This document shows, one piece after another, positions 19,838-60,833 of a stretch of DNA of 64,000 nucleotides (its first letter is position 1; the number at the start of each line of letters is the position of its first letter). The notes under the pieces were generated by a model. That model saw only the letters and a program-made list of their open reading frames with translations, had not been told where the DNA came from and made no database searches. The position numbers and the translations under genes are program-made. The stretch comes from a virus. The stretch lies in the IMG/VR virus record IMGVR_UViG_3300043640_000137, positions 24,525-88,524 of that record. The stretch is one strand, 5' to 3'.

Positions 19838-20062
19838 TTACCGCCGGCCCCGATTGGTCGCGGCTTCACGGCGCTTGATCTCGGCGAACATCTCGTCGCA
19901 TTTCAAATTGCCGTGCTTCGTGACGAAGTGGCTGAGCTTCATGCGGCCGTCGATCCGGCGCACCTGATCCCGGCTGCTGGTCAGGACGGTCAGCCGGTCG
20001 AACTCGGCAAGCTCGGACTCGGTGTACGAGATCATCTCTACGGTTCTCTGCTCGGCCATCAT
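19838..20062 (-). CDS. Small hypothetical protein after integrase
   Basis: 74 residues from tandem ATGs that overlap the integrase stop (ATGATG). Basic helical protein (SELAEFDRLTVLTSSRDQVR, then EMFAEIKRREAATNR). Transcribed with the integrase. No family recognised. Confidence 0.6.
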   Translation of the reverse strand: MMAEQRTVEMISYTESELAEFDRLTVLTSSRDQVRRIDGRMKLSHFVTKHGNLKCDEMFAEIKRREAATNRGRR

Positions 20063-45789: not shown

Positions 45790-46128
45790 TTAAAAGACGC
45801 CGGCTTCAATGAGATCGAGAGTCGTCTGCGAATATCGGATGATGCCACCGTGGCGGATCAGCGGCGGCATGCTACGGTTGCGAAGCGTGCGTTCCGTGCA
45901 GTTGAGCCGCTTCGCTGCGAGAGCCGGCGTCAGAAGCTTGTCGGTGCCGTGGAAAATCGCTTCGAGCAGTTCGGCGTTGCAGCCAAAAGCCTTCGCGATC
46001 TGCCTCACTGTGTATTTCGGGTCCATCGACTCCGACCAGTTCGGGTTGCCTTGGCCGGTGATCGCTCGTAGGACCGTCCGCTGGTGACAGCCAAGTGAGG
46101 CAGCCACCTGATTCAGTGAGACTTGCAT
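45790..46128 (-). CDS. Protein with three helix-turn-helix units
   Basis: 112 residues. LNQVAASLGCHQRTVLRAI, VRQIAKAFGCNAELLEAIF and TPALAAKRLNCTERTLRNR look like three tandem excisionase-type HTH modules, the last with a wing (HGGIIRYSQ). First gene after promoter P6, ahead of PrimPol. Candidate transcription regulator or replication initiator helper. Confidence 0.65.
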   Translation of the reverse strand: MQVSLNQVAASLGCHQRTVLRAITGQGNPNWSESMDPKYTVRQIAKAFGCNAELLEAIFHGTDKLLTPALAAKRLNCTERTLRNRSMPPLIRHGGIIRYSQTTLDLIEAGVF

Positions 46129-48053: not shown

Positions 48054-48733
48054 GCTGCCTTCTTCCCTTCCCAGAATTGGGTACTATGTCCTTCCCACCG
48101 CCGGTCCCATACGAACCAGGAGAAGTTGTGCCGCGGCCCGGCGTCGGGCCTATTCGGGTCAAGACCAGCTTTCACCCGTCGCTGCCGCTTCTGATCTTCG
48201 GTCAGCCACCAGTCCCATCGCGGCCGGCTGGTCAGCACGATCTCGAAAGCGAACGGCACCTTCTTGAATGGGCCGAAGGGCTGACGATCGAAGTAGCTCC
48301 GGCGCTTGCCGGCGTGATTGACCTCACCGCGAAGCAGCGCAGCGACTGTCTGCACCTTCGGCATCGACAGGGCGTGCTCGATGAACTCGTCTTGCAGATT
48401 GTACGGAGGGTTCATGACAATCGCTTCGACGCCTGGATCGAGCAGTTCGTCGTTCAAGAAGTCGCGAGCGCCAGCCGCGCGCACTGGATAGAGCGTTTCG
48501 TCGAAGTCGCTCATGTCGAGGTCGCAGGCGATGATGTCGCTGTAGGCGATGCCGTCGTCTTCCACGAGCACGTCGATGATGTCGCCACGGCCGCATGCCG
48601 GTTCGAGGATCAGCATGCCGGGCAGGTTGAGGCGGCGCATCAATGCGCGGGTCATCCAGTGCTCGGTGTAATACTTCTCGCCTTCGTTGCGCTCGAAGGC
48701 ACTCTGCACCATCGCCTTGTCGCGCGTGATCAT
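48050..48733 (-). CDS. DNA adenine methyltransferase-like protein
   Basis: 227 residues. SAM-binding EPACGRGD (44-51) and catalytic NPPY (108-111) in the gamma/alpha order. C-terminal part (FSWFVWDRRWEGHS) is typical of phage methylases. Second methyltransferase of the phage, different class from the one at 31200. Confidence 0.85.
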   Translation of the reverse strand: MITRDKAMVQSAFERNEGEKYYTEHWMTRALMRRLNLPGMLILEPACGRGDIIDVLVEDDGIAYSDIIACDLDMSDFDETLYPVRAAGARDFLNDELLDPGVEAIVMNPPYNLQDEFIEHALSMPKVQTVAALLRGEVNHAGKRRSYFDRQPFGPFKKVPFAFEIVLTSRPRWDWWLTEDQKRQRRVKAGLDPNRPDAGPRHNFSWFVWDRRWEGHSTQFWEGKKAA

Positions 48734-49188
48734 TCGTCGTCTCCGTCACCGAAGGCGGCGTTGGTCGTCCCCATTTCGTGGAGCGGGACAGTGCGCGTTA
48801 CGTATCCAGGGCCTCGGTTGCCGCTCGGGCCACGCTTCACGCCTGCCGGCGGCGCTGGACGTGGCTGAGGCGCAGCGACGGGCTGTGCTGGTGCAGCGGG
48901 CGTCGTCACGGGATCGGTGGAACCTTGCTGCACGGCAGGACGGCCCTCATCCGCTGCGATGGCTGCTGTATCGGCGATCAGGTTGAGCATCTTCGCGAAG
49001 CGCGCCGGCTCAGATATCAGCGCGCCTACCATCGCCTCGTGCTCAGCCGTGGCGTTTTCAGGCATACCGGCGACCGCAGTCAGAAGCTCGACGCGGACCT
49101 CGTGCTTAACGGCATCGGCTTGCGACGCGAAGTCGCTCGTCGAACCGTCTGGGTTTTTCACCCGATAAACCTGGACAGCCTCGACCAT
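48730..49188 (-). CDS. Hypothetical protein with VQQGSTD linker
   Basis: 152 residues. A helical N-terminal domain (about 1-80), then the 24-bp repeat read as AVQQGSTDP, then a Pro/Ala-rich linker and a Gly-rich end. The repeat lies between domains. Unknown function. Confidence 0.55.
   Translation of the reverse strand: MVEAVQVYRVKNPDGSTSDFASQADAVKHEVRVELLTAVAGMPENATAEHEAMVGALISEPARFAKMLNLIADTAAIAADEGRPAVQQGSTDPVTTPAAPAQPVAAPQPRPAPPAGVKRGPSGNRGPGYVTRTVPLHEMGTTNAAFGDGDDE
48911..48934 (-). repeat. 24-bp dispersed repeat, copy 1
   Basis: Plus-strand GGATCGGTGGAACC then TTGCTGCACG. The most isolated copy, 5.5 kb from the others. In frame as VQQGSTD. Confidence 0.9.
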
Positions 49189-49190
49189 GA

Positions 49191-49547
49191 TCAGTTCAGC
49201 CGTGATCCTGGCACCGGGACCGCGAGTGCGAAGTCGTCGATTGGATCAGGCTGCGCGGATTGATCGACGGTGCTCAGCACAGCGATCCCGTGATCGATGT
49301 AGGCGCAGTCGAGGCCCGTCGAGCCGTCGCCGAAGGTCTTCAGCGGATCGAGGCCGAATGGTGCGACGATGGCGGGCCACAGCGCCCGCGTGGCTTCGCG
49401 AAGCAGTGCCTGCCGAGCCGCGACAAGCTGCTGGTGCTTCATGTCGAGCAGTTCCATGTCTTCCTTGAACTCATGCACGAGACCGTGGAACGCCTTGGCG
49501 GCGTCGAGCGCCATGCCAGTCAAAAGAAACGTCTTTGGATTACCCAC
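49191..49547 (-). CDS. Hypothetical protein, GTG start
   Basis: 118 residues from GTG at 49547 (GGGAG upstream, overlap with previous stop). Helical coiled-coil-like middle (AFHGLVHEFKEDMELLDMKH). Unknown function. Confidence 0.55.
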   Translation of the reverse strand: MGNPKTFLLTGMALDAAKAFHGLVHEFKEDMELLDMKHQQLVAARQALLREATRALWPAIVAPFGLDPLKTFGDGSTGLDCAYIDHGIAVLSTVDQSAQPDPIDDFALAVPVPGSRLN

Positions 49548-49749
49548 GATCGTTCTCCCTCTTCTCAGTCTGCAAGACGCTATCGACGATCTGCTCGGCC
49601 TGCTCCCGCGACATCTCAGGGTGCGCAAGCATGATCTCACCCACCGCCCACGACCGACGTGTCTCGTCCGTGTTGCCGCCCTTGGAGATCGCGTTGAGCC
49701 GGCGCTGGGCCATCCCGAGTTGCGAGAAGGTGAGTCGCGTCTGCGTCAT
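49540..49749 (-). CDS. Hypothetical helical protein
   Basis: 69 residues (MLAHPEMSREQAEQIVDSVL helix). Unknown function. Confidence 0.55.
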   Translation of the reverse strand: MTQTRLTFSQLGMAQRRLNAISKGGNTDETRRSWAVGEIMLAHPEMSREQAEQIVDSVLQTEKRENDRG

Positions 49750-49994
49750 TTGTCGGACCTCGGGATCGGTGGGATGTCGAGCAGTGATGCAGCAATCGTC
49801 TTCCGGCTGGACCGGCGCTTCGGAAGGGAAGGGCTGCCGTGGTTATCGTCGCCGCGGTAATCGAGTGCGCGCTCGCGTTGCTCGGGCGTTAGCGTCGCCA
49901 GGAAACCAGTCTTCTCGGCGAGCACCTGCGGCTTGCGCTTCTCTCGCTCGATGGCGAGGTTGATGATCTCAGCGCTCCGCGTGCCGGCGATCAT
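49746..49994 (-). CDS. Hypothetical basic protein
   Basis: 82 residues; AIEREKRKPQVLAEKTGFLA and a 'TPEQRERALDYRG' segment. Unknown function. Confidence 0.5.
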   Translation of the reverse strand: MIAGTRSAEIINLAIEREKRKPQVLAEKTGFLATLTPEQRERALDYRGDDNHGSPSLPKRRSSRKTIAASLLDIPPIPRSDK

Positions 49995-49997
49995 CTG

Positions 49998-50246
49998 CTA
50001 CCCCTTGACGGCCATGCCGCCGATTGGCTCGCGGCGTGCGGGCTGCGACGGCTGTTGCGGGGAAAGCTCTTCGTCTGGGACCAGCATGTCCATGACGACC
50101 AGGACGTGTGGCGTGCCGACGCCGGCACCGCCCATGACAACGAACGGCTCGCATGTGTGCAGACGCCAGTTCGCCTTGCCGTGCTCTTTCAGCAGGGCTT
50201 GAAGCTCTTCTGGCGATGTGAGGAAGGTGAGATAGTCGTAAGCCAT
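49998..50246 (-). CDS. Hypothetical protein, leaderless start
   Basis: 82 residues from ATG at 50246. MAYDYLTFLTSPEELQALLK is helical; a beta sheet and proline-rich tail follow. The predicted transcript starts at or next to the A of ATG. Confidence 0.6.
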   Translation of the reverse strand: MAYDYLTFLTSPEELQALLKEHGKANWRLHTCEPFVVMGGAGVGTPHVLVVMDMLVPDEELSPQQPSQPARREPIGGMAVKG

Positions 50247-50253
50247 ACCAGGG

Positions 50254-50297
50254 AACTTATAGAGCCATTCCCCGGCTGTCAAGCTACTTTATATAGC
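50254..50297 (-). promoter_or_regulatory. Early promoter P7 with dyad
   Basis: -35 TTGACA (50282-50277), 17-base spacer, -10 TAAGTT (50259-50254). Upstream GCTAC TTTAT ATAGC (50283-50297), one mismatch. Confidence 0.75.
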
Positions 50298-50523
50298 TGT
50301 CGAGGGTCTTCCCAATAAGGTTGAGCCCCGCACGGGTATCAGCCGCACGAGGCTCGAATTAGAAGGCACCCTGCTTCTTGCTATCATAAAAGCTATTGCC
50401 CTCTCTGAAACTGCGCATTGTCACTTATGCTATCAAAACAGATTTTGCGCAGCTTCAGAGAAGGCGGGAGCGCAGAGACACTTGCTATCAGGCGTGCAGT
50501 TGCTCCCGGTTCTCCTACGCCTT
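50298..50523. other. Intergenic region with inverted repeat and TGATAGCA sites
   Basis: About 226 bp without a convincing gene. CTCTGAAACTGCGCA (50403-50417) pairs with 50446-50460 with one mismatch, around a 28-base AT-rich loop. Three TGATAGCA octamers (minus strand) at 50379-50386, 50428-50435 and 50483-50490. Could be an origin, operator or terminator region. Confidence 0.6.
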
Positions 50524-51132
50524 TCAGCGTATATCTTTCGCCTGCTTGATGATCTTCTCGACCGCCTTTGCGGTGAACTCCTGCGAGACGCGGCTCTCGG
50601 AGTCCGGCAGGCCCGCGCACAGTTGCTCGGCGATAAAGCTGTGCTCGCGGCCTCGACGGCCCCACGCCTTCAGCTTCTCTTGCGTCATGTCGCCGATGTA
50701 GCAGTCGAAGTCCGCGATCTTGTAATCGACGAACCATGCGAGCGCCGTCGTAGCGCCCTGCGTGTGCGCCACTGCTGCCGCTGCCTTAGCACCGCGCGTA
50801 GCTGCTGCCGTCGATTGGCCGCGGGCCTTGCCACGACGAGGGCCTGACTGCCGGGGTGTCTGCGCCGGGTTCAACTCCGTCTCGCGGGCGTCCATCTTCC
50901 TACCGGCCATGCGGGTGATCACGCCCAGGAAGTCGTCGTCGATCTTCAGCGCTTGCGGGCACTGGTCGATGATGGCGACCGCAAGGTTTGCTGGCGACCG
51001 GCTGTTTTCAAGTTCCTGATCGACGAGGTTACGGAGCATCGACTCCGCGTTCTCACGCGCTTTCTGCGCCGTCGATTTCTCCGCACGATGGGCGCGCTCG
51101 ACAGCGCCCGCATTCTCTATACTGGTCTGCAT
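50524..51132 (-). CDS. Hypothetical protein
   Basis: 202 residues; helical N-terminus, a central Ala/Arg/Thr-rich basic stretch (GPRRGKARGQSTAAATRGAK) and an acidic-aromatic segment (WFVDYKIADFDCYIGD). Possibly DNA-binding. Unknown family. Confidence 0.55.
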   Translation of the reverse strand: MQTSIENAGAVERAHRAEKSTAQKARENAESMLRNLVDQELENSRSPANLAVAIIDQCPQALKIDDDFLGVITRMAGRKMDARETELNPAQTPRQSGPRRGKARGQSTAAATRGAKAAAAVAHTQGATTALAWFVDYKIADFDCYIGDMTQEKLKAWGRRGREHSFIAEQLCAGLPDSESRVSQEFTAKAVEKIIKQAKDIR

Positions 51133-51162
51133 AACTTAGCCTCTCGTTGCTTTACACACTGG

Positions 51163-51879
51163 TTAAAAAAAAAAAGTGGAAGGCGCGGAATCTGTTGCTA
51201 TCAGCGTAATCTTGAAGTAGAGCACAGCGAGCTTGTTGCCCGGTCGCATCGCGGCGCCCTCACCATCGTCAGCCCGCGCGTAGCTGTTCTTCGGTGCGAG
51301 GCCGATGTAGCGGCGCAGTCCTTGCGGCGTGGTCTTCTCGACCGTGCCGTCTTCGAGTTCGAACTGCCGCGGATCACCGAGCAACCCGAGGATACATCCG
51401 TACCCGTAGAGGCTGACGCCCTTGGTAGCGTCGATCCAGCCGTCGCCCGCCCATCCAGCGCAATCGCCACCGGGGAGCTTTGCGACGATCTTCTCCATGG
51501 CGCGACGCGACTTCTTCTCGGCCGCGATCAGTCCGTCGATCGCCGGCTGTGACGCGCGCATCATCTCCGCCGTAGCTTCGTCCATCTCTTCGCCGCCGGG
51601 GAGTCCCATCGGCTCACCTTTTTCGTATCGAGCGAGCGATTCCTCGACCTGTTTGAGCTTCGTCTTGCGCTCGTCGTCCGGCAGGAACGCGTTGTAGCCG
51701 ATCTGGAACGCAACGAAGGATTCGTTCTGATTGATGAGGCGCATCCGCGCAACTTCCGCGCGCTTGTTAAGCCGATACCAGCGCTGAAGGTCTTCGAGTT
51801 GCGCCGTGAACGGCAGCCCCTCGATCGCCGCGGGCTCGGGCTTCACAACTTCCAACTTCGGCTTGCGCTTGGTGGGCAC
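51163..51879 (-). CDS. Conserved phage protein, possible DNA-binding (IS110 C-term-like)
   Basis: 238 residues from GTG at 51879 (GGAG six bases upstream). GVSLYGYGCILGLLGDPRQF and GLRRYIGLAPKN resemble the helix-hairpin-helix end of IS110-type transposases, but no catalytic domain is seen. The gene ends in a run of eleven T giving STFFF. An IS origin is not claimed. Confidence 0.45.
   Translation of the reverse strand: MPTKRKPKLEVVKPEPAAIEGLPFTAQLEDLQRWYRLNKRAEVARMRLINQNESFVAFQIGYNAFLPDDERKTKLKQVEESLARYEKGEPMGLPGGEEMDEATAEMMRASQPAIDGLIAAEKKSRRAMEKIVAKLPGGDCAGWAGDGWIDATKGVSLYGYGCILGLLGDPRQFELEDGTVEKTTPQGLRRYIGLAPKNSYARADDGEGAAMRPGNKLAVLYFKITLIATDSAPSTFFF
51196..51203 (-). promoter_or_regulatory. 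TGATAGCA octamer
   Basis: Copy of the octamer seen three times at 50379-50490, here inside the gene at 51163. Confidence 0.4.
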
Positions 51880-51921
51880 TTGGCTCTCCGTTTCAAAAAA
51901 GATCGAACGCAGTCTACAAAT

Positions 51922-51929
51922 TGCTATCA
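51922..51929 (-). promoter_or_regulatory. TGATAGCA octamer in P8 leader
   Basis: Same octamer, in the untranslated leader between promoter P8 and the GTG at 51879. Confidence 0.45.
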
Positions 51930-51955
51930 CATGACATATTGCGTTCTTGAAAGAG

Positions 51956-51999
51956 AGCTTATGAAATATTTCCGTCCCTGTCAAGCTACTTTATGTAGC
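51956..51999 (-). promoter_or_regulatory. Early promoter P8 with perfect dyad
   Basis: -35 TTGACA (51984-51979), 17-base spacer, -10 TAAGCT (51961-51956). GCTAC TTTAT GTAGC at 51985-51999 is perfect and directly upstream of -35. Confidence 0.8.
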
Positions 52000-52217
52000 T
52001 AAAATCCTATTCTCGAATGTGCCATCCGCAGCGCGCGATACTGGTCTTCGCGCCACGTCCAGTGTGCAATCGAGACGACGGCCTCGATCTCGAGTCCTCG
52101 TAGCGTCTGTTCATCGTACGCGAACACGGCGCGCGGAGCTTTGTCAGCGTGGTCCCGACACCAATCGTCAAACTGCCGACGCGTGCCGGCGATGACCGCG
52201 ATCTTCGCCGTGCTCAT
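51999..52217 (-). CDS. Hypothetical phage protein
   Basis: 72 residues. KIAVIAGTRRQFDDWCRDHA, RGLEIEAVVSIAHW: a Rossmann-like small domain that recurs in phages (beta strand, glycine loop). Unknown function. Confidence 0.6.
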   Translation of the reverse strand: MSTAKIAVIAGTRRQFDDWCRDHADKAPRAVFAYDEQTLRGLEIEAVVSIAHWTWREDQYRALRMAHSRIGF

Positions 52218-52453
52218 CCGAGCTTGATCCTATCAGCTATGCGGTTGAGCCCGAAACGGTATAGGCGACGGCGCGCCCTGAACATGATCTTCCACCACGC
52301 CCACCGCAGCGGAGGCAGCAGATCGGGCTCTTGTGGCTTGGGATCGGGCCGCGCGCGGCGCTGGTAGCACGACTCCATGTACCCGCATTCGCATCTTTCA
52401 GCGAAGCGACGGCACTTAGGACAGAAGGTAAGCGGGACCGCGATCTTGCTCAT
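52214..52453 (-). CDS. Small zinc-binding protein
   Basis: 79 residues: FCPKCRRFAERCECG gives four Cys for a zinc knuckle; basic C-terminus. Unknown function. Confidence 0.58.
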   Translation of the reverse strand: MSKIAVPLTFCPKCRRFAERCECGYMESCYQRRARPDPKPQEPDLLPPLRWAWWKIMFRARRRLYRFGLNRIADRIKLG

Positions 52454-52620
52454 AGGCTGCGGAGCCTCTTAATGAAGGACTCGGCACCCGTGTTATACAT
52501 TTTCGAGAACAACCGGCGCTTCCACAGATTGCGCACGTCCATAGTCCATTCGTCATCGGGGATCGCGTGACCAAGCTCTTTCTCGGCCTGGGCGCGGATG
52601 TAGTCTAGTGGATCGCTCAT
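52450..52620 (-). CDS. Hypothetical protein
   Basis: 56 residues from ATG at 52620, overlapping the upstream stop. Helical (YIRAQAEKELGHAIPDDEWT). Unknown function. Confidence 0.55.
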   Translation of the reverse strand: MSDPLDYIRAQAEKELGHAIPDDEWTMDVRNLWKRRLFSKMYNTGAESFIKRLRSL

Positions 52621-52817
52621 GCGGAAGCGCCGGTCCAACGGTCATGGATTTGGATTAGCGAAACGATCACGCGATTGTCGTAGGTGTCACGGCATTCCAT
52701 GTCCTGTAACGACCCGTCTTGCTGATAGATGCGATACCATATGCGCCCGTCTCGACCTTTGATCTTCGAGAAGTCGTAAGGATCGCAGCGTTCGTATTCG
52801 TCAATCTTCTTCGTCAT
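52617..52817 (-). CDS. Hypothetical protein
   Basis: 66 residues from ATG at 52817. Beta-rich (RIWYRIYQQDGSLQDMECRD). Unknown function. Confidence 0.55.
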   Translation of the reverse strand: MTKKIDEYERCDPYDFSKIKGRDGRIWYRIYQQDGSLQDMECRDTYDNRVIVSLIQIHDRWTGASA

Positions 52818-52918
52818 CGCCCGCCTCGTAAGCAATGCAGTCGCAGCTTTCACATGCCGTCGATCCGGGATACTTCGTGGCCGTGTTCTTCTTCACTGTG
52901 TCCGCATTCGCAAGCCAT
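52801..52918 (-). pseudogene. Small zinc-binding gene split by an apparent +1 frameshift
   Basis: From ATG at 52918: MACECGHSEEEHGHE in one frame; about base 52875 another frame continues KYPGSTACESCDCIAYEAGD to a stop at 52801. The halves make one plausible four-Cys protein, so one extra base near GGCCACGAAG breaks it, or frameshifting is programmed. Confidence 0.5.
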
Positions 52919-52928
52919 GATCTATCCC

Positions 52929-53099
52929 TTAGTCGAAGCTCGGGTAGCCGGCGTCGATCACGGCGTACTCGATACGGTTGGCGACCACTTCGAGCGCGTC
53001 GCCGATAGTCACGATATCCTCACTGTCTTCCTTTGATTCTCGGGCGACGTCCCTGAGTATGTCGCGCACGATCTTCAGCGCGTCGTATGCGTCCATCAT
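52929..53099 (-). CDS. Hypothetical acidic helical protein
   Basis: 56 residues from ATG at 53099. DAYDALKIVRDILRDVARES helix. Unknown function. Confidence 0.55.
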   Translation of the reverse strand: MMDAYDALKIVRDILRDVARESKEDSEDIVTIGDALEVVANRIEYAVIDAGYPSFD

Positions 53100-53248
53100 G
53101 ATTCGTCTTCCACCTTCTTGACCCATGTATCGGAATCGGGCTCGTAGACGTACCCTTCCCGCTTCAGCCTTTCGATGGTGTCGCGCTCCCGATGAGCGGC
53201 GTGTGCCATCTGCCGAAGATAGTCGGAGAGCTTCGCGGTGAACGTCAT
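53096..53248 (-). CDS. Hypothetical helical protein
   Basis: 50 residues (MTFTAKLSDYLRQMAHAAHR...), ATGA overlap with the next gene. Unknown function. Confidence 0.55.
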   Translation of the reverse strand: MTFTAKLSDYLRQMAHAAHRERDTIERLKREGYVYEPDSDTWVKKVEDES

Positions 53249-53295
53249 GCTTCGGCTTCCGTGGCCTCTTCTAGGACGTTCGCGGGCATAAGCAT
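53245..53295 (-). CDS. 16-residue mini-ORF
   Basis: MLMPANVLEEATEAEA; its stop overlaps the next ATG and its start follows the previous stop by two bases. It may only serve translational coupling. Confidence 0.25.
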   Translation of the reverse strand: MLMPANVLEEATEAEA

Positions 53296-53297
53296 CG

Positions 53298-53600
53298 TCA
53301 CGTCAGCGACTCCAATTCCTTGATGCGCTTCTCCAAGCGCTCCATGTACTCGGCCGCTTGGCGCAAGCCCGGCGGGTTGCCGCCGTGAACTCGAAGCGCC
53401 TGCTTGACTGTCTCGACATGCGCCGGATCGACCTTGAATGACTCCGCGGGCACGCTACCGGCCACAATCCGAAGCCCGCGCTTTTCGAGATGATGCCGGA
53501 CGTTGAGTGCCGTCACCCGGCCTTCACCGTCGCACACAGCGTCGGACAGCGCCTCGTTGATGTCGTCGTCCATGACCGCGATTGCGTCTTCGTTAGCCAT
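53298..53600 (-). CDS. Hypothetical protein
   Basis: 100 residues from ATG at 53600. Acidic N-terminus; a middle with RVTALNVRHHLEKRGLRIVA; C-terminal coiled coil (AAEYMERLEKRIKELESLT). Unknown function. Confidence 0.55.
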   Translation of the reverse strand: MANEDAIAVMDDDINEALSDAVCDGEGRVTALNVRHHLEKRGLRIVAGSVPAESFKVDPAHVETVKQALRVHGGNPPGLRQAAEYMERLEKRIKELESLT

Positions 53601-53608
53601 CTTAACTC

Positions 53609-53791
53609 CTACCGATAAAGTTGAATGTGCGTGGTCTGCAAACCCGCAACGCCGTGGCCGAGACGCGTGAGCCATGTCTGGAACTCCTCGATCGACAACG
53701 AGTGCGCTTCACACGCCGCCTCGATCGAGATCGCACCATCCTGAACTGACTTAACCAGTTCCGCTTTCCGCCGTGCCGTCCACCGCTTTTG
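53609..53791 (-). CDS. SciP-like transcription regulator (DUF1153)
   Basis: 60 residues from ATG at 53791. RW..RRKAELVKSVQDG, then S-x-E-x-AC, SIEEFQTWL and GLQTTHIQLYR follow the DUF1153 pattern of Caulobacter SciP residue by residue (RW, RRKAE, EAC, EEF, GL, QxYR). In Caulobacter, SciP binds CtrA and stops it activating transcription. The phage form has only the helix-turn-helix core, lacking the usual N-terminal arm. It is first in the operon and starts within a few bases of the predicted transcription start, so a role early in infection or in lysogeny is likely. Confidence 0.88.
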   Translation of the reverse strand, partial: QKRWTARRKAELVKSVQDGAISIEAACEAHSLSIEEFQTWLTRLGHGVAGLQTTHIQLYR

Positions 53792-53801
53792 CATGATGTA
53801 A

Positions 53802-53845
53802 CCTATGAACGAACTTTCCGTGACTGTCAAGCTACTTTATGTAGC
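53802..53845 (-). promoter_or_regulatory. Early promoter P9 with perfect dyad
   Basis: -35 TTGACA (53830-53825); -10 is CATAGG or TAGGTT (17- or 19-base spacer), the weakest -10 of the set. GCTAC TTTAT GTAGC at 53831-53845 is perfect. Confidence 0.7.
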
Positions 53846-53849
53846 TGTT

Positions 53850-54152
53850 TTATTGTTTTCCCCAAGACCTGACGATAGCCATGACCGCTTCTCTCGCCTC
53901 TGGGCATCCATCCCTGCACGCCCTCGTCATGACGTAGATCATGGCCGCGCTATCGTTCGGGAAGACGCGGCTCGCCCCATGGAACTCAGCGTCAGCATCA
54001 TCCTCACGCGGAGCGATATCACGGTTCGCGTGAAGTTCGAGGATCGGCTCTTTCTCCGTGCCGATGTTCACGACATCCCAATGCACGCGGTACGGATCGT
54101 GAGACGGCACCGGACGCCGGCTGAGATGAAGCGGTGACTGCCTGATCTTCAT
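53850..54152 (-). CDS. Hypothetical protein
   Basis: 100 residues; beta strands (PILELHANRDIAPREDD) and a helical C-terminus (REAVMAIVRSWGKQ). Unknown function. Confidence 0.55.
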   Translation of the reverse strand: MKIRQSPLHLSRRPVPSHDPYRVHWDVVNIGTEKEPILELHANRDIAPREDDADAEFHGASRVFPNDSAAMIYVMTRACRDGCPEAREAVMAIVRSWGKQ

Positions 54153-54340
54153 CGGTGCTTACTCACGTTGCTGGGATCGAAGTTCATCTGGTAGCCGGCG
54201 ACGTATGGCGTCACGCCGATCCAATCTGGATACACGGAGCCGCCACAGCCCGACACCGGCCCGACGGCGGTGATCCTGCCGACTCCATAGCCGGGCACGC
54301 GCACTTGCTCACCGAGGATGATTTCGTCAAAGGCAATCAC
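54149..54340 (-). CDS. Hypothetical protein
   Basis: 63 residues; beta-barrel-like (VRVPGYGVGRITAVGPVSGC). ATGA overlaps on both sides. Unknown function. Confidence 0.55.
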   Translation of the reverse strand: MIAFDEIILGEQVRVPGYGVGRITAVGPVSGCGGSVYPDWIGVTPYVAGYQMNFDPSNVSKHR

Positions 54341-54420
54341 TTCAAGCCTCCATAAAGTAGGATCGCGGTCGTCAAGCCGCCGATGAGAATTATAATCGCC
54401 GCGAGATGGTAGTACCTCAT
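54337..54420 (-). CDS. 27-residue membrane peptide
   Basis: MRYYHLAAIIILIGGLTTAI and a short tail: single membrane helix. An upstream in-frame extension through the 24-bp repeat (VRQGSTES) is open but has no ATG. Confidence 0.5.
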   Translation of the reverse strand: MRYYHLAAIIILIGGLTTAILLYGGLK

Positions 54421-54451
54421 TTTTGCGCTCTCGCTCCTGGGCATTCGTTGC

Positions 54452-54973
54452 TCATTCGCCTGGCCGGATTCGGTGGAACCTTGCCGCACGGTGCCTCGCT
54501 GCTTGTCGAAGCCAAGTCGCAAACCGTTCTGCGTCTACCACCAGCGGCGACTTCTCAGCGAGCCACACGGCTAGCAGGTCCATGTAGCTGTTGCCCTTAC
54601 CCAGGTGCGATACTGCGTGCGCAAGGACTCGGCGCTCGATGTCGGCGAAGTCCGCGTCGATGATTACGATACGCGGCTGTTCCCGGCCGGCTCGGTGGAA
54701 GCGGCTCTGCGATTGGATGATGTCGAGGGTTATCGCGTCGAGGGCTTGCTTCTGGTGCGGAAGCAGACGGCCGGTAGGGCTCTGCCCGGAATCGGTGGAA
54801 CCTTGCTGCACGGCGAGATTGGATTCGGTGGAACCTTTCTGCACGCCGCCTAGCAAAGCGGCATAGAGATCGCGCACCAGCATCTCAGTGATCAGCGGCA
54901 GCCGCGCCCTCTCTTCCGCGTCGAGCAGGCACCACGCATTGGCCCGCCCCAATAGCTGCTTCATGTCAGCCAT
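54452..54973 (-). CDS. Hypothetical protein with two in-frame 24-bp repeats
   Basis: 173 residues from ATG at 54973. N-terminal helix, then GGVQKGSTESNLAVQQGSTD (two repeat copies), then a domain with PRIVIIDADFADIERRVLAH and a conserved-looking ending. The DADF segment could bind metal. A third repeat lies at the 3' end, read in another frame (HRAARFHRI). Confidence 0.55.
   Translation of the reverse strand: MADMKQLLGRANAWCLLDAEERARLPLITEMLVRDLYAALLGGVQKGSTESNLAVQQGSTDSGQSPTGRLLPHQKQALDAITLDIIQSQSRFHRAGREQPRIVIIDADFADIERRVLAHAVSHLGKGNSYMDLLAVWLAEKSPLVVDAERFATWLRQAARHRAARFHRIRPGE
54467..54490 (-). repeat. 24-bp dispersed repeat, copy 2
   Basis: GATTCGGTGGAACC then TTGCCGCACG (one change). 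At the 3' end of the gene at 54452 and upstream of the peptide gene at 54337. Confidence 0.9.
54789..54845 (-). repeat. 24-bp dispersed repeat, copies 3 and 4
   Basis: Copy 3 at 54789-54812 (GAATC variant) and copy 4 at 54822-54845 (TTTCTGCACG variant), nine bases apart, both in frame as VQQGSTD and VQKGSTES. Confidence 0.9.
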
Positions 54974-55397
54974 AGACGATATCCTTCAGAGCGACGCATT
55001 GCAGAAACACATCGGCCGTGGTCGCGTCTTCGTTGTCGTTGAGGAAATCGCCGAAGTGCTGGCCGTACTTCTCCGCCATGAGCTTCAGCCCGACCTTGAA
55101 ATCCGCTTGCGTGATGCGTCGGCTTTGCGGCTCGCCCTCTTCGTTGTACTCGCCGACTTCGATCTCGAAGAGGCTGCCATCGCCGAACAGCGCCGGGCAG
55201 TCATACCAGTTGTCTGACTCGGAGTCAGCCTCCGCCGCTGCAACAGCCTCCCGCCCCGATAAAACTTCGGAGAAGTGGTTGCCGGGCTCCCATCGAAGCA
55301 ACAGCACGCTTCTGCACCAGTAGTTGCTTCCGCCTTCGATTGCCGTGACCATAAGGTCTGCAATGCGTCGCGGCGCGATCTCGATCTCAATTTTCAT
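54966..55397 (-). CDS. Hypothetical protein
   Basis: 143 residues from ATG at 55397 (ATGA overlap). Beta-rich N-terminus (MKIEIEIAPRRIADLMVTAI), acidic middle with repeated E. Unknown; conserved-looking. Confidence 0.6.
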   Translation of the reverse strand: MKIEIEIAPRRIADLMVTAIEGGSNYWCRSVLLLRWEPGNHFSEVLSGREAVAAAEADSESDNWYDCPALFGDGSLFEIEVGEYNEEGEPQSRRITQADFKVGLKLMAEKYGQHFGDFLNDNEDATTADVFLQCVALKDIVYG

Positions 55398-55849
55398 TTG
55401 CTGCTCCAACTGTTCATCCCTTCGGGCGCGTCGATGCCATACCCGCCACGCTCCACTTTATCCTTGTCGGGAAGCTGGGCGATATACGCCTCGGCTTCGG
55501 CAATGGTGCCAAAGCGCTTTAGCACCGTGAACCCTTCGCTCTCTTCGTCAACCACGAACACGGGTTTAAGCGTCATTTGCTGCTCCCATTTATCGAGCCA
55601 ACCTTTTTGGTCCGCTTCCCTAAGCACGTACTCCACCATGTAGGCGAGGTATCCTGCGTCGTTCTCTTGCCCGAGCTTGGCGTTGATGCGCTCCATGCTC
55701 GGCTTAATGATCTCGGACACGCAGCGAGCATTAAACCGGCGGAGTGGCGTAGGGTGATCGGCCTTGCGGCATTCCTTAAAAATCGCGACCGCTTTGTCGA
55801 TCTCATCCTGGGTCAGGAAGTCGTCCAACGTCACTTGCTTGTCTGCCAT
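55394..55849 (-). CDS. Hypothetical protein
   Basis: 151 residues from ATG at 55849 (GGGAGAG upstream). Helical first half (DEIDKAVAIFKECRKADHPT), beta second half. Unknown function. Confidence 0.6.
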   Translation of the reverse strand: MADKQVTLDDFLTQDEIDKAVAIFKECRKADHPTPLRRFNARCVSEIIKPSMERINAKLGQENDAGYLAYMVEYVLREADQKGWLDKWEQQMTLKPVFVVDEESEGFTVLKRFGTIAEAEAYIAQLPDKDKVERGGYGIDAPEGMNSWSSK

Positions 55850-55883
55850 ACTTTCTCTCCCAATGAAACTCTCTAGCCAGCTA

Positions 55884-56060
55884 CTATACGCCCTGGCCGG
55901 AATCGGTGGAACCTTGCTGCACGCGAGCGACAAACGCGTCCAGCCCTCTTCGCTTCTTGCGCGCGGCGGCGCTGTGCCTCGCCTGCGTGCGCTTTTTTAT
56001 CTTAGCTTCATGCGCCGCTAAGTGCGCGGCTACGGCCCTCTCCTGCTCTTGATCTTGCAC
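55884..56060 (-). CDS. Small basic protein ending in VQQGSTDS
   Basis: 58 residues, GTG start overlapping the upstream stop. Lys/Arg-rich helix, then VARVQQGSTDSGQGV at the C-terminus, encoded by repeat copy 5. Confidence 0.6.
   Translation of the reverse strand: MQDQEQERAVAAHLAAHEAKIKKRTQARHSAAARKKRRGLDAFVARVQQGSTDSGQGV
55900..55923 (-). repeat. 24-bp dispersed repeat, copy 5
   Basis: GAATC variant of GATTC. Read in frame at the C-terminus of the gene at 55884. Confidence 0.9.
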
Positions 56061-56257
56061 TAGAAAAGCTCCGCTAACTCTTGCTTCAACTTCGCGTCGT
56101 CGTCCTGCACGGGCTCCGCCTTGCGCTTACGCTCGCGATCCTCGGCGTCGATGGCTTTGCAGAACGCGATCCAGTTCGCTTCGGCACGCTGAAAGCACAA
56201 CACGTCATCGGGATTATGCCGCGAACTCGGCGCATAGAACTCAGTGGGCTTAGCCAC
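56060..56257 (-). CDS. Hypothetical protein
   Basis: 65 residues from GTG at 56257 (GGAG nine bases upstream). Helical (RAEANWIAFCKAIDAEDRER). Unknown function. Confidence 0.55.
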   Translation of the reverse strand: MAKPTEFYAPSSRHNPDDVLCFQRAEANWIAFCKAIDAEDRERKRKAEPVQDDDAKLKQELAELF

Positions 56258-56504
56258 GGGCCGGCTCCGATTCGGTGGAACCTTGCTGCACGGCGGCGCC
56301 GTGATCATGCTCGATGCCGTAGGGCGCAAGGCACACTTGAAGGAAGCCATTCGTCTGCCGGCTGACGTTCGCGCACACCTTGCCGAGCACTGGCGCCAGC
56401 GCCTCGCGGCATGCGGCCTCAAAGCAATCGTCACACATTCCGACTTCCTGGGTCTGGCATGTGACGTGCTGCTCGCCGCAGACTTCGCAATAGGGTAGGT
56501 CCAT
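56250..56504 (-). CDS. Zinc-binding protein ending in VQQGSTES
   Basis: 84 residues from ATG at 56504. CEVCGEQHVTC and MCDDCFEAAC fit a zinc site; the C-terminus GAAVQQGSTESEPARG comes from repeat copy 6. Confidence 0.62.
   Translation of the reverse strand: MDLPYCEVCGEQHVTCQTQEVGMCDDCFEAACREALAPVLGKVCANVSRQTNGFLQVCLAPYGIEHDHGAAVQQGSTESEPARG
56269..56292 (-). repeat. 24-bp dispersed repeat, copy 6
   Basis: Consensus copy, in frame at a C-terminus, just before the next gene. Confidence 0.9.
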
Positions 56505-56896
56505 CACACAGACTCCTTTGCAACCGTCTCCGATTCGGTGGAACCTTGCTGCACGGTGTCCTTCGGAAGCAAAGGAAGGTCGATAAAGCCGGGCCGCGCG
56601 TCAGGCGCTTTGAATAGCTCCCAATCTCCGGCCGCGAGGCGGAAGGCGCTGACGGAGCCGTGAGCGAGGTCAAGCTCTATCAGCGTGCGCCGTATCAGCC
56701 CGTAGCCCGGCATCTTGTCTGCCGATATCCCAAGGCGGACGAAGCCCTGAGACTCAAGCTGCGATGGATCGTAGCTCTTCGGGCCAGAGTAAAGCGTCGT
56801 GTGGCCTTGCTCGCGGGCGCGCTCGAACATCGCGTCCATCTTGGCGTTGCGGCGCTGGGCGCCGGTCATTGTCCGCCAGCCTGGGAACTTAGACAT
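56504..56896 (-). CDS. Hypothetical protein ending in VQQGSTES tail
   Basis: 130 residues. RNAKMDAMFERAREQGHTTL and ESQGFVRLGIS; C-terminus TVQQGSTESETVAKESV from repeat copy 7. Unknown function. Confidence 0.6.
   Translation of the reverse strand: MSKFPGWRTMTGAQRRNAKMDAMFERAREQGHTTLYSGPKSYDPSQLESQGFVRLGISADKMPGYGLIRRTLIELDLAHGSVSAFRLAAGDWELFKAPDARPGFIDLPLLPKDTVQQGSTESETVAKESV
56532..56555 (-). repeat. 24-bp dispersed repeat, copy 7
   Basis: Consensus copy at the 3' end of the gene at 56504. Confidence 0.9.
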
Positions 56897-56945
56897 TGAC
56901 CGTCTCCGATTCGGTGGAACCTTGCTGCACGGCGGATACGCTCAT
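56889..56945 (-). CDS. Mini-ORF made of the repeat (VQQGSTES)
   Basis: 18 residues, MSVSAVQQGSTESETVNV. Its ATG overlaps the stop of the gene at 56942 and its stop overlaps the start of the next gene, so it bridges them. It is almost only the repeat. Confidence 0.4.
   Translation of the reverse strand: MSVSAVQQGSTESETVNV
56908..56931 (-). repeat. 24-bp dispersed repeat, copy 8
   Basis: Consensus copy between two genes, inside the mini-ORF. Confidence 0.9.
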
Positions 56946-57274
56946 ATCGAACGCTCCTTCTGTTTGGCCAGCCAATCGAACCACGCCAACGCGCTCTGGA
57001 CGGTTCTGTAGCGACCGCCGTTGCAGTGGCAGGCTTGCGGCTCCCAACCGGCGAAGTCATAGTTGCCCTCGGTCGCTGTCCGGTAGCGCACAGATAAGCG
57101 CCTCTCCCAACAAACCATATCCTCGGGTATCCACTCTTCGCGCTCTTGCCCGTCAGAAGTGATAACCGCAAGGCTGGCGTTTAAGTACCTGACCGCCTCG
57201 AACCCCGCGCGCTGCATCGCTTCAAGATGCGAGGGCGGGAGCACCGGGACGGCCGTCGCTTTGCGTTTGCTCAT
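56942..57274 (-). CDS. Hypothetical protein
   Basis: 110 residues; MSKRKATAVPVLPPSHLEAM start, beta middle with CHCNGGRYRTVQSALAWFD at the end. Unknown function. Confidence 0.6.
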   Translation of the reverse strand: MSKRKATAVPVLPPSHLEAMQRAGFEAVRYLNASLAVITSDGQEREEWIPEDMVCWERRLSVRYRTATEGNYDFAGWEPQACHCNGGRYRTVQSALAWFDWLAKQKERSI

Positions 57275-57277
57275 GGC

Positions 57278-57610
57278 TCAGCCCTCGATCTTGGCAAGGA
57301 TGGTGCGCAGGATCGCGCGGTCGGGATCACTTGGATGCTCAATCTGCGGAACGCATCGCCGCACCCAGGCCGCAAGCTCGCGCAGCGTCGCCGCGTCGAG
57401 CGTGACATTGCCGCGTGGATCACGCGTGAAGATATCGTGGCCGATGCGGATGTTCCCGCTATCGCGCACGGAGTAAACCAAGTCGTGGTATCGGGCGTCC
57501 CGCTTGTCGCGCTCTTTGCGCGCCGCAGCAAGATCGTCGGTTGTGAACCGAGTGCGCGTCCATTCTGACGCCGCGATGTGCCGATGGCAGAGAACGTATT
57601 GACCGCTCAT
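57278..57610 (-). CDS. Hypothetical protein sharing a domain with the gene at 59149
   Basis: 110 residues. GHDIFTRDPRGNVTLDAATL repeats nearly word for word at 59149 (DIFTRDPRGNVTLD). N-terminal CHRH; C-terminal helix. Unknown function. Confidence 0.6.
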   Translation of the reverse strand: MSGQYVLCHRHIAASEWTRTRFTTDDLAAARKERDKRDARYHDLVYSVRDSGNIRIGHDIFTRDPRGNVTLDAATLRELAAWVRRCVPQIEHPSDPDRAILRTILAKIEG

Positions 57611-57912
57611 TTGTCGCTCCCATTCGCCTTCGGCTCGGGCTTCGCGGATTCGGTGGAACCTTGCTGCACGTCTTCGTCTTCATCGCTTTCGGGATGGTGG
57701 ACGAAGACCCAGGCCGAGACCCAAACGCCTTCCTCGGTGTAGCTGTAGAGCGGCGCGTCATCGATCTCTAAGTCGTCATTGACGGCGACTTGCTCGGCGT
57801 ACTCGGGATACTTGTCACCGTAGGTTGCGAGGATCGTGAGAACCTCAGCTTGCGTCAGGCCCGAGCCCAACGCTTCGCGCACCATGCTTTTCAAGCGGTC
57901 ATTGTCAGCCAT
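57607..57912 (-). CDS. Hypothetical protein ending in VQQGSTES tail
   Basis: 101 residues from ATG at 57912 (AGGAGTCGA upstream). Helical; C-terminus DVQQGSTESAKPEPKANG from copy 9. The frame is open upstream through copy 10 with a possible GTG start. Confidence 0.58.
   Translation of the reverse strand: MADNDRLKSMVREALGSGLTQAEVLTILATYGDKYPEYAEQVAVNDDLEIDDAPLYSYTEEGVWVSAWVFVHHPESDEDEDVQQGSTESAKPEPKANGSDK
57647..57670 (-). repeat. 24-bp dispersed repeat, copy 9
   Basis: Consensus copy near the C-terminus of the gene at 57607. Confidence 0.9.
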
Positions 57913-57925
57913 TCGATCGACTCCT

Positions 57926-57949
57926 GATTCGGTGGAACCTTGCTGCACG
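57926..57949 (-). repeat. 24-bp dispersed repeat, copy 10
   Basis: Consensus copy between genes, followed at once by AGGAGTCGA and the ATG at 57912; in the same frame as the downstream gene. Confidence 0.9.
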
Positions 57950-57950
57950 C

Positions 57951-58382
57951 TCAGCGATACCAATATTGCACGCCGTCGAAATCGACTTGCTGATAGTCCA
58001 TCTTCAATTCGTCCGCCGCGCGGTCCCAATCGATGTAGGACAGCGGCCATTGCGCGTCGCGGCCGATGGCGCCGATGTCTTCGGCATGCTCTTGGGCATA
58101 GTCTTGGAAGGATGAGTCCCGGATGAGCGTGACCGGATACCAAGCGCCGTTCCATTCGTGATCGCCGCCATTGCCGCGAAGCTCATCCAGAAGCGCGGTC
58201 AGATTGGCGCGCTCTTGCGCCTCGTCAGTCAGGTCAACGCCTTCGACGCCGGACACTTCGCCTTCGCCGCCGATTGACGATTGCGCCGAAAGGTCTTCAA
58301 GCTCCGTTCCGATTTCCTCGACGCGTGCAATCACGTCGCGCACGTCGATATAGCCTTCGGAATTACTAATGCTATCAGCCAT
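57951..58382 (-). CDS. Conserved phage/plasmid-type hypothetical protein
   Basis: 143 residues from ATG at 58382. The segment WNGAWYPVTLIRDSSFQDYA, WPLSYIDWDRAADELK and VDFDGVQYWYR is a pattern I have seen in phage and plasmid proteins of unknown function. N-terminal coiled coil. Acidic. Confidence 0.62.
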   Translation of the reverse strand: MADSISNSEGYIDVRDVIARVEEIGTELEDLSAQSSIGGEGEVSGVEGVDLTDEAQERANLTALLDELRGNGGDHEWNGAWYPVTLIRDSSFQDYAQEHAEDIGAIGRDAQWPLSYIDWDRAADELKMDYQQVDFDGVQYWYR

Positions 58383-58693
58383 CACACGCTCCCGGATTCG
58401 GTGGAACCTTGTTGCACGGCGTTCTCGCTCCGCGCGTCCTTCAGAACCTTTATGCTCTCTCGCAGCCATTGCCAGCCGGCCGTCATGCTGCCCTTGCACT
58501 CGGGTTCGAAGAGCACGATTGCGAGCGCGAGAAGCTCTTCCATGTCCGTCGCCGCGCCAATCAGGTTGGCGTTCGCAACCGCCTGTCCCGGCAACAGGTG
58601 CGAGCGGTCGGTGTCCGTAACCAGCACGCCGTTTGCATCTCGAATGACGGTGACTTGAACGGTCCAAGGACCGGGTGAATGTTTAACGGGCAT
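58382..58693 (-). CDS. Conserved phage protein ending in VQQGSTES
   Basis: 103 residues from ATG with AGGAGTCGA upstream. KHSPGPWTVQVTVIRDANGV and ANANLIGAATDMEELLALAI follow a common phage hypothetical family ('HTPGPW'). C-terminus NAVQQGSTESGSV from copy 11. Confidence 0.65.
   Translation of the reverse strand: MPVKHSPGPWTVQVTVIRDANGVLVTDTDRSHLLPGQAVANANLIGAATDMEELLALAIVLFEPECKGSMTAGWQWLRESIKVLKDARSENAVQQGSTESGSV
58395..58418 (-). repeat. 24-bp dispersed repeat, copy 11
   Basis: TTGTTGCACG variant; the change is synonymous (CAG to CAA) in the VQQGSTES frame. Confidence 0.9.
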
Positions 58694-58961
58694 CGTTCGA
58701 CTCCTTGCACTCGGCTTCGTTATCGGTGTCGCGCGATATGCGGTCGCGCGGTACGCCTAGCTCGTCTGCCATCTCTGCCGCCGATTGCTGCGCCCATTTT
58801 TCCAAGGTCGCCGCTGGCACGGGCCGGTCATTCACGGCGACCGATTGAGAGTCGAGCGGATGGTCGCCGGCCGTGTATTCTTTGACGGGCTGGCCGTCGC
58901 GCCCGTATGCCGTGACCGCGTAGCCGTGGCCGGTCAGGTACCATTGAACGAAGGGCTTCAT
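58683..58961 (-). CDS. Hypothetical protein
   Basis: 92 residues from ATG at 58961. MKPFVQWYLTGHGYAVTAYG start, acidic helical end. Unknown function. Confidence 0.55.
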   Translation of the reverse strand: MKPFVQWYLTGHGYAVTAYGRDGQPVKEYTAGDHPLDSQSVAVNDRPVPAATLEKWAQQSAAEMADELGVPRDRISRDTDNEAECKESNDAR

Positions 58962-59152
58962 TGCCAATCCCCGTATCCCGCGCAATCGGGCTGCGGCTCT
59001 TCGCTGTCTTCCGCTTCCATCGCGTCAAGCCAGCCGTGAATCCACGCGTAGCTGTTCTCCGCTTTCGAGGAAGATTCGGACGCGTACCGGCCATCGACTC
59101 CGGCCATGCACGCTTGCCAGCCCGCGACATACGCTTGCGCTTCGGTTGTCAT
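58958..59152 (-). CDS. Hypothetical protein
   Basis: 64 residues from ATG at 59152. Ala/Glu-rich with CMAGVDGRYASE; acidic end. Unknown function. Confidence 0.55.
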   Translation of the reverse strand: MTTEAQAYVAGWQACMAGVDGRYASESSSKAENSYAWIHGWLDAMEAEDSEEPQPDCAGYGDWQ

Positions 59153-59850
59153 GACCGCGCCCATCGTTGCTTAACCACAAGGTCACAATCGGAATAGATA
59201 TCGGTAAGCTCCGCGAGCAAGGCTGCGCATTCATCCGGCGTTGCGTTGCGCGTCTCATTAAACCAAGAGCGCGAGCATTCCGAGTGCTGGCCGATGTGCG
59301 CGTAGCACACGGCCATTCCGGGGTTGGCGCTCAGCGTAGGGAACACGGCGCTAACGTCGCCCTTGAACTTACCGGCGCACTCCACACGGAATAGAACCGG
59401 AAGCTTCTCTTTGCCTGACGCGGCCTTGCGCGGTTGAGTCGTTCTGTCGCTGACGATGGCGCCAGTCCTGCCAATCGTGACGCGCTGGTTAAAGCGATGC
59501 TTCCCTGCCGGCGTTATGAGCCGAAAGCCGCGAACGGACTCAACCCGGTATCCGGGGCGATGCTCTGTCAGCGCTTCATTCATCCGGCCGCGCGTCAACA
59601 TGCTATAGAAGCCGCCGCTGTCGAGCGTCACGTTGCCGCGTGGATCACGCGTGAAGATGTCGGTGGAGTGAAGGCGCACGCGGAGCGTTTCGTCGCTCAG
59701 CCTATATTCGATTGTGTTCCGCGCCACGATCCGCGACGTGATCACTTCGCAAGGCTTGCCGCTTGCCTGTATCTCGCTCGCGATCTCGGCGAGCATGCCC
59801 TTCTTACTCTTGCGCGCGATGGCTTGCGCGGAATACTGACCGTAACCCAT
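59149..59850 (-). CDS. Hypothetical protein, shares domain with gene at 57278
   Basis: 233 residues from ATG at 59850. Contains the shared DIFTRDPRGNVTLD segment (near residue 65), a basic middle and a C-terminal domain with CYAHIGQHSECSRSWF. First gene after promoter P10. Unknown function. Confidence 0.6.
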   Translation of the reverse strand: MGYGQYSAQAIARKSKKGMLAEIASEIQASGKPCEVITSRIVARNTIEYRLSDETLRVRLHSTDIFTRDPRGNVTLDSGGFYSMLTRGRMNEALTEHRPGYRVESVRGFRLITPAGKHRFNQRVTIGRTGAIVSDRTTQPRKAASGKEKLPVLFRVECAGKFKGDVSAVFPTLSANPGMAVCYAHIGQHSECSRSWFNETRNATPDECAALLAELTDIYSDCDLVVKQRWARS

Positions 59851-60009
59851 GACATCAATCTCGCTATCGCTTTCGGGCGATGCGGGAGGCGCTGGTATCA
59901 CGCCTCCGCGCAGTCTTGCCCGGATTGAAACTCTTTCTCTCAGTGGATTGCGCGCTTGCGCTGCGGTCTACATGATCGGCTCCCGTTCTCTCTCGCTTCC
60001 TTGAAAGAG

Positions 60010-60038
60010 ACAGTAGAGCTACTTTCCGTGGCTGTCAA
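60010..60038 (-). promoter_or_regulatory. Early promoter P10 with dyad in the spacer
   Basis: -35 TTGACA (60038-60033), 17-base spacer, -10 TACTGT (60015-60010). GCTAC TTTCC GTGGC (60018-60032), one mismatch. Drives the small-gene operon 59850 leftward. Confidence 0.75.
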
Positions 60039-60099
60039 AAAGAAAATGTAGCTCGGCGAATATATTCGTCGTTAATTTCTTAACCTATATCCGGCCATG

Positions 60100-60129
60100 A
60101 AAAAAGGCGCCTCGATTTCTCGGGGCGCC
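60100..60129 (-). terminator. Minus-strand terminator
   Basis: GGCGCC stem with inner CGA/TCG pairing, followed on the minus strand by T6 (60105-60100). Ends the operon coming from beyond 64,000. Confidence 0.82.
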
Positions 60130-60138
60130 CTCTGCCGG

Positions 60139-60170
60139 AAGCATGCTTTTCTAAGGCATGCTTTTTTTTT
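60139..60170 (+). terminator. Plus-strand terminator
   Basis: AAGCATGC / GCATGCTT stem followed by T9 on the plus strand. No plus-strand gene is seen here, so it probably stops antisense or spurious transcription, or ends an unrecognised RNA. Confidence 0.7.
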
Positions 60171-60192
60171 CTATCACTTATCTAGGCATAGA

Positions 60193-60546
60193 TCAGCCCA
60201 TCGTCGCCTCGGTCGCTGGCGTGGTCGCATCGCCCATGTTCAAGTTGTTGTCTTTCCAGTAGCGGAGCACGTTGCAACCGACCTTTCGCTGCACAGCCTT
60301 AGCGCATAGCTCTTCAAGCTCTGCATCAATCGCTTCTGTGATCTGGCCCGAGCTTGGTTCTGCCGCCGCTAGTAGCGTATAGTCGAAGCGGAAGACGGCA
60401 AAATCATCGCCCGCAACGCTTGCCTCGAACGCATAGGCTTTGTCCGCTTCCTCCGCCGTGTGCCACCAATCGAAGCCGCCGCCGCCTGCCCGTGGACCGG
60501 GATTGACGTACTCCGTCGCGACGCAATAGACCTTCTTCCCTGTCAT
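60193..60546 (-). CDS. Hypothetical protein
   Basis: 117 residues. GKKVYCVATEYVNPGPRAGG start, aromatic acidic middle. Last gene of the rightmost operon. Unknown function. Confidence 0.58.
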   Translation of the reverse strand: MTGKKVYCVATEYVNPGPRAGGGGFDWWHTAEEADKAYAFEASVAGDDFAVFRFDYTLLAAAEPSSGQITEAIDAELEELCAKAVQRKVGCNVLRYWKDNNLNMGDATTPATEATMG

Positions 60547-60833
60547 GACGATAGACCTCTCTTTGCTGATTCGGTGGAACCGTGCTGCACGTCAAATAAA
60601 TCCCAAGCTTGATCGACGCGTTCCAAGATTCGGTGGAACCTCGCTGCACGCCGGCCCGATTCGGTGGAACCACGCTGCACGGCGCCACCGTCCGCGCTCG
60701 CGCTCGATCTCTCGCTTTTGAGATAATTCCGCTCGATCGGTAAGGTTAACGATCCATTAAGGTTAACGCGCATTAAGGTTAACGATCCATTAAGGTTAAC
60801 GCGCATTAAGGTTAACGCCCGGCCAGCTTTCAT
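60543..60833 (-). CDS. Doubtful ORF over iterons and three 24-bp repeats
   Basis: 96 codons starting directly at the upstream stop (TAAATG). The N-terminus is a translation of the iteron array (LTLMRVNLNGS twice) and the C-terminus of two repeat copies. It may be a control region rather than a protein gene. Confidence 0.25.
   Translation of the reverse strand: MKAGRALTLMRVNLNGSLTLMRVNLNGSLTLPIERNYLKSERSSASADGGAVQRGSTESGRRAARFHRILERVDQAWDLFDVQHGSTESAKRGLSS
60568..60591 (-). repeat. 24-bp dispersed repeat, copy 12
   Basis: GATTCGGTGGAACC, GT, GCTGCACG. In frame as VQHGSTES. Confidence 0.9.
60627..60681 (-). repeat. 24-bp dispersed repeats, copies 13 and 14
   Basis: 60627-60650 (middle bases TC) and 60658-60681 (middle bases AC), seven bases apart. 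Together with copies 1-12 they show that the two bases after GGAACC vary while both flanks are fixed. Confidence 0.9.
60741..60817. repeat. Five iteron-like direct repeats TAAGGTTAACG
   Basis: Copies start at 60741, 60758, 60774, 60791 and 60807, spaced 17, 16, 17, 16 bases. Spacers alternate between ATCCAT-like and CGCAT-like. GTTAAC inside each is itself palindromic. Fits an origin or a multi-site operator. Confidence 0.85.

Follow-up and report, generated by a model that had tools for sequence, protein, structure and literature searches.

A 24-bp sequence is repeated 14 times, always in the same orientation, in the phage genome studied here, and nine of the copies lie just ahead of a gene start. 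The strand bias, the placement at junctions and a conservation that does not depend on reading frame together suggest that the repeat may be an orientation-dependent cis element at early-operon junctions, acting like the SAS or the stoperators of mycobacteriophages. A probability of about 0.45 is given to this reading. The window analysed, a stretch of 64,000 nucleotides, corresponds to bases 24,525-88,524 of a virus record totalling 88,524 bp.

The sense-strand sequence of the repeat is CGTGCAGCNNGGTTCCACCGAATC. Since the genes in this region are on the minus strand, the string printed in the preliminary description is its antisense. When up to two mismatches were allowed in the fixed bases, 14 matches were obtained in a single orientation, with 0 expected and 0 found in 100 shuffles; the dispersed one-strand repeat that had been described is thus real. 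Eight matches in the whole record are exact, and all of these lie within the window. When the entire record was scanned with a position-weight matrix, the 14 copies scored 37-43 bits and the next best site 10 bits, a gap that fixes the number at exactly 14. The count proposed in the preliminary description stands, for this record, at 14, all inside the window. No degenerate or decayed copies were seen in the 88.5-kb record by the weight-matrix scan, and none on the opposite strand (0/14 antisense). Copies are absent from the window's first 48.9 kb, from the 24.5 kb preceding it and from the structural half, and 13 of the 14 are packed into ~6.2 kb. The edges of the repeat are sharp. CGTGC, the core GGTTCCACCGA and the final C are invariant in all copies, variation being confined to bases 6-10 and 22-23. 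The two middle bases, said earlier to vary, do so in three copies only and are AA in the other 11. A length of 24 preserves any reading frame, and no stop codon is present in any of the six frames.

Genes were called with a small codon model and ribosome-binding sites, and the calls around the repeats were checked by hand. By these calls, the window is occupied by minus-strand genes from ~19 kb up to its right end. PHROG and Pfam matches in the small early gene run are mostly to families of unknown function, with one ArdA-like protein. The sole ORF in the leader at 60.6 kb, with three copies inside it, has a codon-model score of -45 and is probably not a gene. The tandem GTTAACCTTA units of this leader occupy 60741-60822, ahead of gene 60193-60546.

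Table 1. Copies of the 24-bp repeat and the regions that carry them (positions in the window).
Feature	Position	Strand	Context
Copy 1	48911..48934	-	two mismatches; internal, Pro/Ala-rich linker of ORF 48730-49188
Copy 2	54467..54490	-	3' end of gene 54452-54973; different frame, RAARFHRI
Copy 3	54789..54812	-	internal linker of gene 54452-54973; VQQGSTDS
Copy 4	54822..54845	-	internal linker of gene 54452-54973; VQKGSTES
Copy 5	55900..55923	-	C-terminus of ORF 55884-56060; next start 50 nt on
Copy 6	56269..56292	-	C-terminus of gene 56250-56504; next start 11 nt on
Copy 7	56532..56555	-	C-terminus of gene 56504-56896; next start 27 nt on
Copy 8	56908..56931	-	past the stop of 56942-57274; start at 56896 is 11 nt on; overlapped by an 18-codon ORF
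Copy 9	57647..57670	-	C-terminus of gene 57607-57912; next start 36 nt on
Copy 10	57926..57949	-	untranslated gap past ArdA-like gene 57951-58382; next start 13 nt on
Copy 11	58395..58418	-	C-terminus of gene 58382-58693; next start 12 nt on
Copy 12	60568..60591	-	start at 60546 lies 21 nt on; centre AC
Copy 13	60627..60650	-	in leader 60547..60829; centre GA
Copy 14	60658..60681	-	in leader 60547..60829; centre GT
Leader, probably non-coding	60547..60829	-	five GTTAACCTTA units followed by three repeat copies
Small early gene run	54149..59850	-	from gene calls; 10 of 14 copies inside, all sense

Of the 13 copies in the cluster, nine have the next start 11-50 nt beyond their end (11, 11, 12, 13, 21, 27, 36, 46 and 50 nt), although such positions make up 13.5% of the stretch; nine near-start copies were reached in 0 of 20,000 random placements. 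The association with gene starts made in the preliminary description is thereby borne out. Its wording that most copies lie 10-50 bases before a start holds for these nine of the 14 (at 11-50 nt) and fails for the other five, which are in linkers (48911, 54789, 54822) or in the leader (60627, 60658). Four copies are 11-13 nt before the start, an arrangement matched in 2 of 20,000 random placements, and the Shine-Dalgarno sequence is therefore often directly 3' of the repeat. At several copies GGAG or AGGAG abuts the last base (GAATC-GGAG, GAATC-AGGAG).

Conservation of the repeat was compared in and out of the peptide frame. A clear VQQGSTES frame within a plausible gene is found at eight copies, five at C-termini (58395, 57647, 56532, 56269, 55900) and three in linkers (54822, 54789, 48911); the remaining six are untranslated, doubtfully translated or in another frame. 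The earlier figure of about 12 of 14 copies open as VQQGSTES is right mechanically, but only these eight have that frame in a plausible gene. Six substitutions in 192 bases were counted in the clear VQQGSTES copies versus five in 144 in the others. Copies outside the frame are thus equally conserved, and conservation is independent of the peptide. All in-frame copies retain two codons that are rare in this genome, GGT (0.16 of the codons for its amino acid) and TCC (0.15), which points to a shared DNA ancestry. Conservation at the nucleic-acid level, as had been supposed, is upheld by both observations, and the VQQGSTES reading is incidental, not the conserved entity. With 11 substitutions in total there are too few to separate constraint from recent copying cleanly, and the identity among copies could also have arisen through recent copying alone.

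The proposal that the RNA folds as a small hairpin, GGUUC-CACC-GAAUC, was not sustained: shuffled sequences fold equally well (z-scores -1.5 to 1.05), and A22T, carried by three of the 14 copies, breaks one pair. An Rfam search with the repeat gave no match, and no dyad symmetry or inverted arms are present in the 24-mer. Several known signals were considered and rejected. No sigma-70 promoter-like site (-35/-10 hexamers) is present at any copy; on the opposite strand the spacing, judged by eye, is unsuitable for sigma-54 and ECF promoters. An integron-like cassette array was set aside, as inspection of the 24-mer revealed no core GTTRRRY and no folded arms.

A separate dispersed motif on the minus strand consists of an AGCTAC..GTAGCT palindrome that overlaps a TTGACA; 17 bases on lies an A/T-rich hexamer. 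Its sites, located partly by eye, are at 46151, 46172, 50274, 51976, 53822 and 60009. This motif is probably the early promoter and operator of the phage. If the early promoters are of this type, the 24-bp element would lie inside transcription units and not at their heads. A regulator-like gene, 45790-46128, adjoins two of the sites. A unit containing GCCGTTAACCATGTTG occurs three times at 95-base spacing at ~5020-5232 of the studied record (G000), in the part not covered by the window.

If the repeat is a cis element, a putative phage or host factor would recognise it, either on the RNA or on DNA that is being transcribed, and in this way tune expression of the downstream gene or genes, as proposed for SAS and known for stoperators. 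VQQGSTES would then be a by-product, an element inside a gene end yielding a harmless polar tail. Weighing against such an element are the variable spacing to starts (11 to 50 nt), the 5/14 copies off starts, the lack of a conserved structure and of an Rfam match, and the confinement to one ~6-kb cluster, when stoperators are found in all operons.

The SAS/ESAS of Cluster K mycobacteriophages are asymmetric, present in one orientation in 11-19 copies, and located in the non-structural half (PMC3203893). The present repeat is likewise asymmetric, in one orientation, in about a dozen copies, among non-structural genes only and mostly just upstream of starts. It differs in length and distance (24 bp, 11-50 nt and 5/14 off starts, against 13 bp and 3-7 bp from the start). 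The SAS consensus GGGATAGGAGCCC contains the Shine-Dalgarno, whereas the sequence here is another one with the Shine-Dalgarno 3' of it; SAS favour genes with long upstream gaps, whereas this repeat is mostly within the 3' end of the upstream gene. Stoperators, too, are asymmetric sites that follow the direction of transcription (PMC4351075, PMC6550527), and those of Cluster A share with the repeat these features and the many copies per genome (PMC6550527, PMC9283540). However, Cluster A stoperators are genome-wide, structural operons included, and bind a known immunity repressor that stops transcription, whereas the repeat occupies one early cluster. As it misses defining features of both SAS and stoperators, the repeat is classed as neither. 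The 17-bp repeats of Cluster O mycobacteriophages are similar in having invariant arms and variable middle bases, in lying often near gene ends and in being denser at one genome end; they are, in contrast, palindromic, number 34 and have no orientation relative to transcription (PMC4351075).

The strongest rival to the cis element is a very small spreading repeat, copied within the operon and kept where it is harmless, at C-termini, in linkers and between genes. This is a possible account, though on balance a doubtful one. Nostoc small dispersed repeats, which are bacterial and 21-27 nt long, several with a common predicted fold, share with the present repeat the length class, the dispersed copies and the lack of an encoded function; they differ in that the repeat here is strand-biased, placed at gene junctions and without a fold. 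In its effect a spreading repeat would be comparable to these cyanobacterial elements, which are mentioned in PMC3116915, and to the Rickettsia palindromic elements. The frame-neutral length of 24 without a stop in six frames, the flexible-linker and C-terminal sites and the absence of decayed copies agree with spreading. So do the 3' flanks common to neighbours (56908/56532/56269 and 54467/54789/55900). Over 12 bases of 3' flank, 56532 and 56908 agree at 9/12, and 56269/56908, 54467/55900 and 54789/55900 at 8/12, against a background mean of 3.1, which fits local copying with some of the flank. The weak point of spreading is the lack of any antisense copy (0/14), though the antisense frames are open too. 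The strong bias to the stretch just ahead of ribosome-binding sites also argues against it, and neither target-site duplications at the copies nor a linked mobilising gene were found.

Also against spreading, no exact match was obtained among 2.9 million viral contigs and 84,980 bacterial and archaeal genomes, sets outside which close kin of the window may fall, so that the absence from them is to be read with close kin excluded. Relaxing the search to a 15-base pattern brought up 21 single matches, with no repeat family among them. Absence in related phages, which the preliminary description had named, together with random placement relative to gene ends, as refuting its observation, is seen for distant kin only (~30-40% amino-acid identity).

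Recombination joints are an unlikely explanation, in which one- or two-gene cassettes would be gained, lost and reordered through homologous or site-specific recombination between repeats. Consecutive copies bracket whole ORFs in a single orientation, which makes such joints possible, and the phage has a gene for a tyrosine integrase (20059-21231). Recombination between repeats has been documented for Corndog-type phages (PMC4351075). Movement of fragments is indicated by a 43-nt stretch, DIFTRDPRGNVTLD, at 57395-57437 and 59620-59662: the two occurrences are 93% identical in otherwise different genes (57278-57610 and 59149-59850), which suggests recent gene-fragment movement. Against these points, the search for relatives yielded none of comparable gene order in which reordering could be seen, the inverted arms expected of a recombinase core are missing, and no serine recombinase is encoded in the record. 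A strand-specific mobile or recombinational joint without stops, which would append itself to gene ends while early genes were added and swapped as cassettes, each with a benign VQQGSTES tail, is held to be no less improbable.

Still less credence is given to a peptide tag, that is, VQQGSTES borne by small early proteins and recognised by a phage or host partner. The peptide frame is read in eight copies, distributed over seven plausible genes, and in an 18-aa mini-ORF, and the frame bias is 10/12 versus one third (p ~5e-4, with doubtful ORF B counted). Such a tag, suggested earlier, is disfavoured by the equal conservation of out-of-frame and untranslated copies and by the fixed rare codons; moreover, VQQGSTES is never the extreme C-terminus, and the variable residues after it leave no terminal degron. 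An assembly or amplification artefact, conceivable in that all repeats come from a single contig, is very unlikely in view of the fourteen distinct contexts with unique flanks, the position-specific variants and the non-random placement.

The phage is isolated and only distantly related to sphingomonad phages. No close relatives were detected by megablast of 24 kb, three protein scans or a plasmid search. The best links are a T5-A1-like DNA transfer protein, 37-48% identical to those of phages of Rhodobacter, Dinoroseobacter and others; the ArdA-like protein; and early and tail proteins, ~30-40% identical to those of Sphingomonas phage Carli and Citromicrobium phage RXM. The relatives of the topoisomerase and of phrog_2355 are distant. 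For the repeat-bearing genes 58382-58693, 54452-54973 and 48730-49188, in which homologues might reveal the tail as an insertion, no phage homologue was found, and for 54452-54973 none in viral contigs either. The tyrosine integrase family protein encoded at 20059-21231 (minus strand) indicates that the phage may be temperate. The DNA polymerase I ORF (31976-35065, minus strand) contains an apparent intein, beginning at ILG-CFEADTEVLTDRGW and ending at LCASN-CGYQMGW, with a PHROG endonuclease match flanked by two polymerase matches.

Dispersed sites of their own are present in four of the five kin compared (Carli, RXM and three distant viral contigs), contig G001 having none. They are palindromes in Carli and two contigs, and, in RXM, GGTTAAC units repeated in its early region; GGTTAAC units recur within the initial 6 kb of the studied record as well. 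In RXM (L026, 3681-7809) a 17-nt leader element, GTCAACAAGAGGAGTGA, occurs five times directly ahead of starts, each copy behind a TTGACT/TTGACC promoter-like site; to our knowledge it has not been described. Like the 24-bp repeat, this element of a distant relative is repeated on one strand directly ahead of small early gene starts. It differs in being 17 nt long, in including the Shine-Dalgarno and in lying in a promoter-bearing intergenic region, and no sequence similarity is seen between the two.

Most descriptions of orientation-fixed repeats at gene junctions come from mycobacteriophages. The repeat reported here would add an independent case that is longer, varies hardly at all and lies partly within coding sequence, in a phage distantly related to those of sphingomonads. 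It illustrates how a DNA-level signal can impose one peptide tail on unrelated proteins, and such a case would allow what these repeats do in transcription, in translation or in the shuffling of genes to be tested in another host group.
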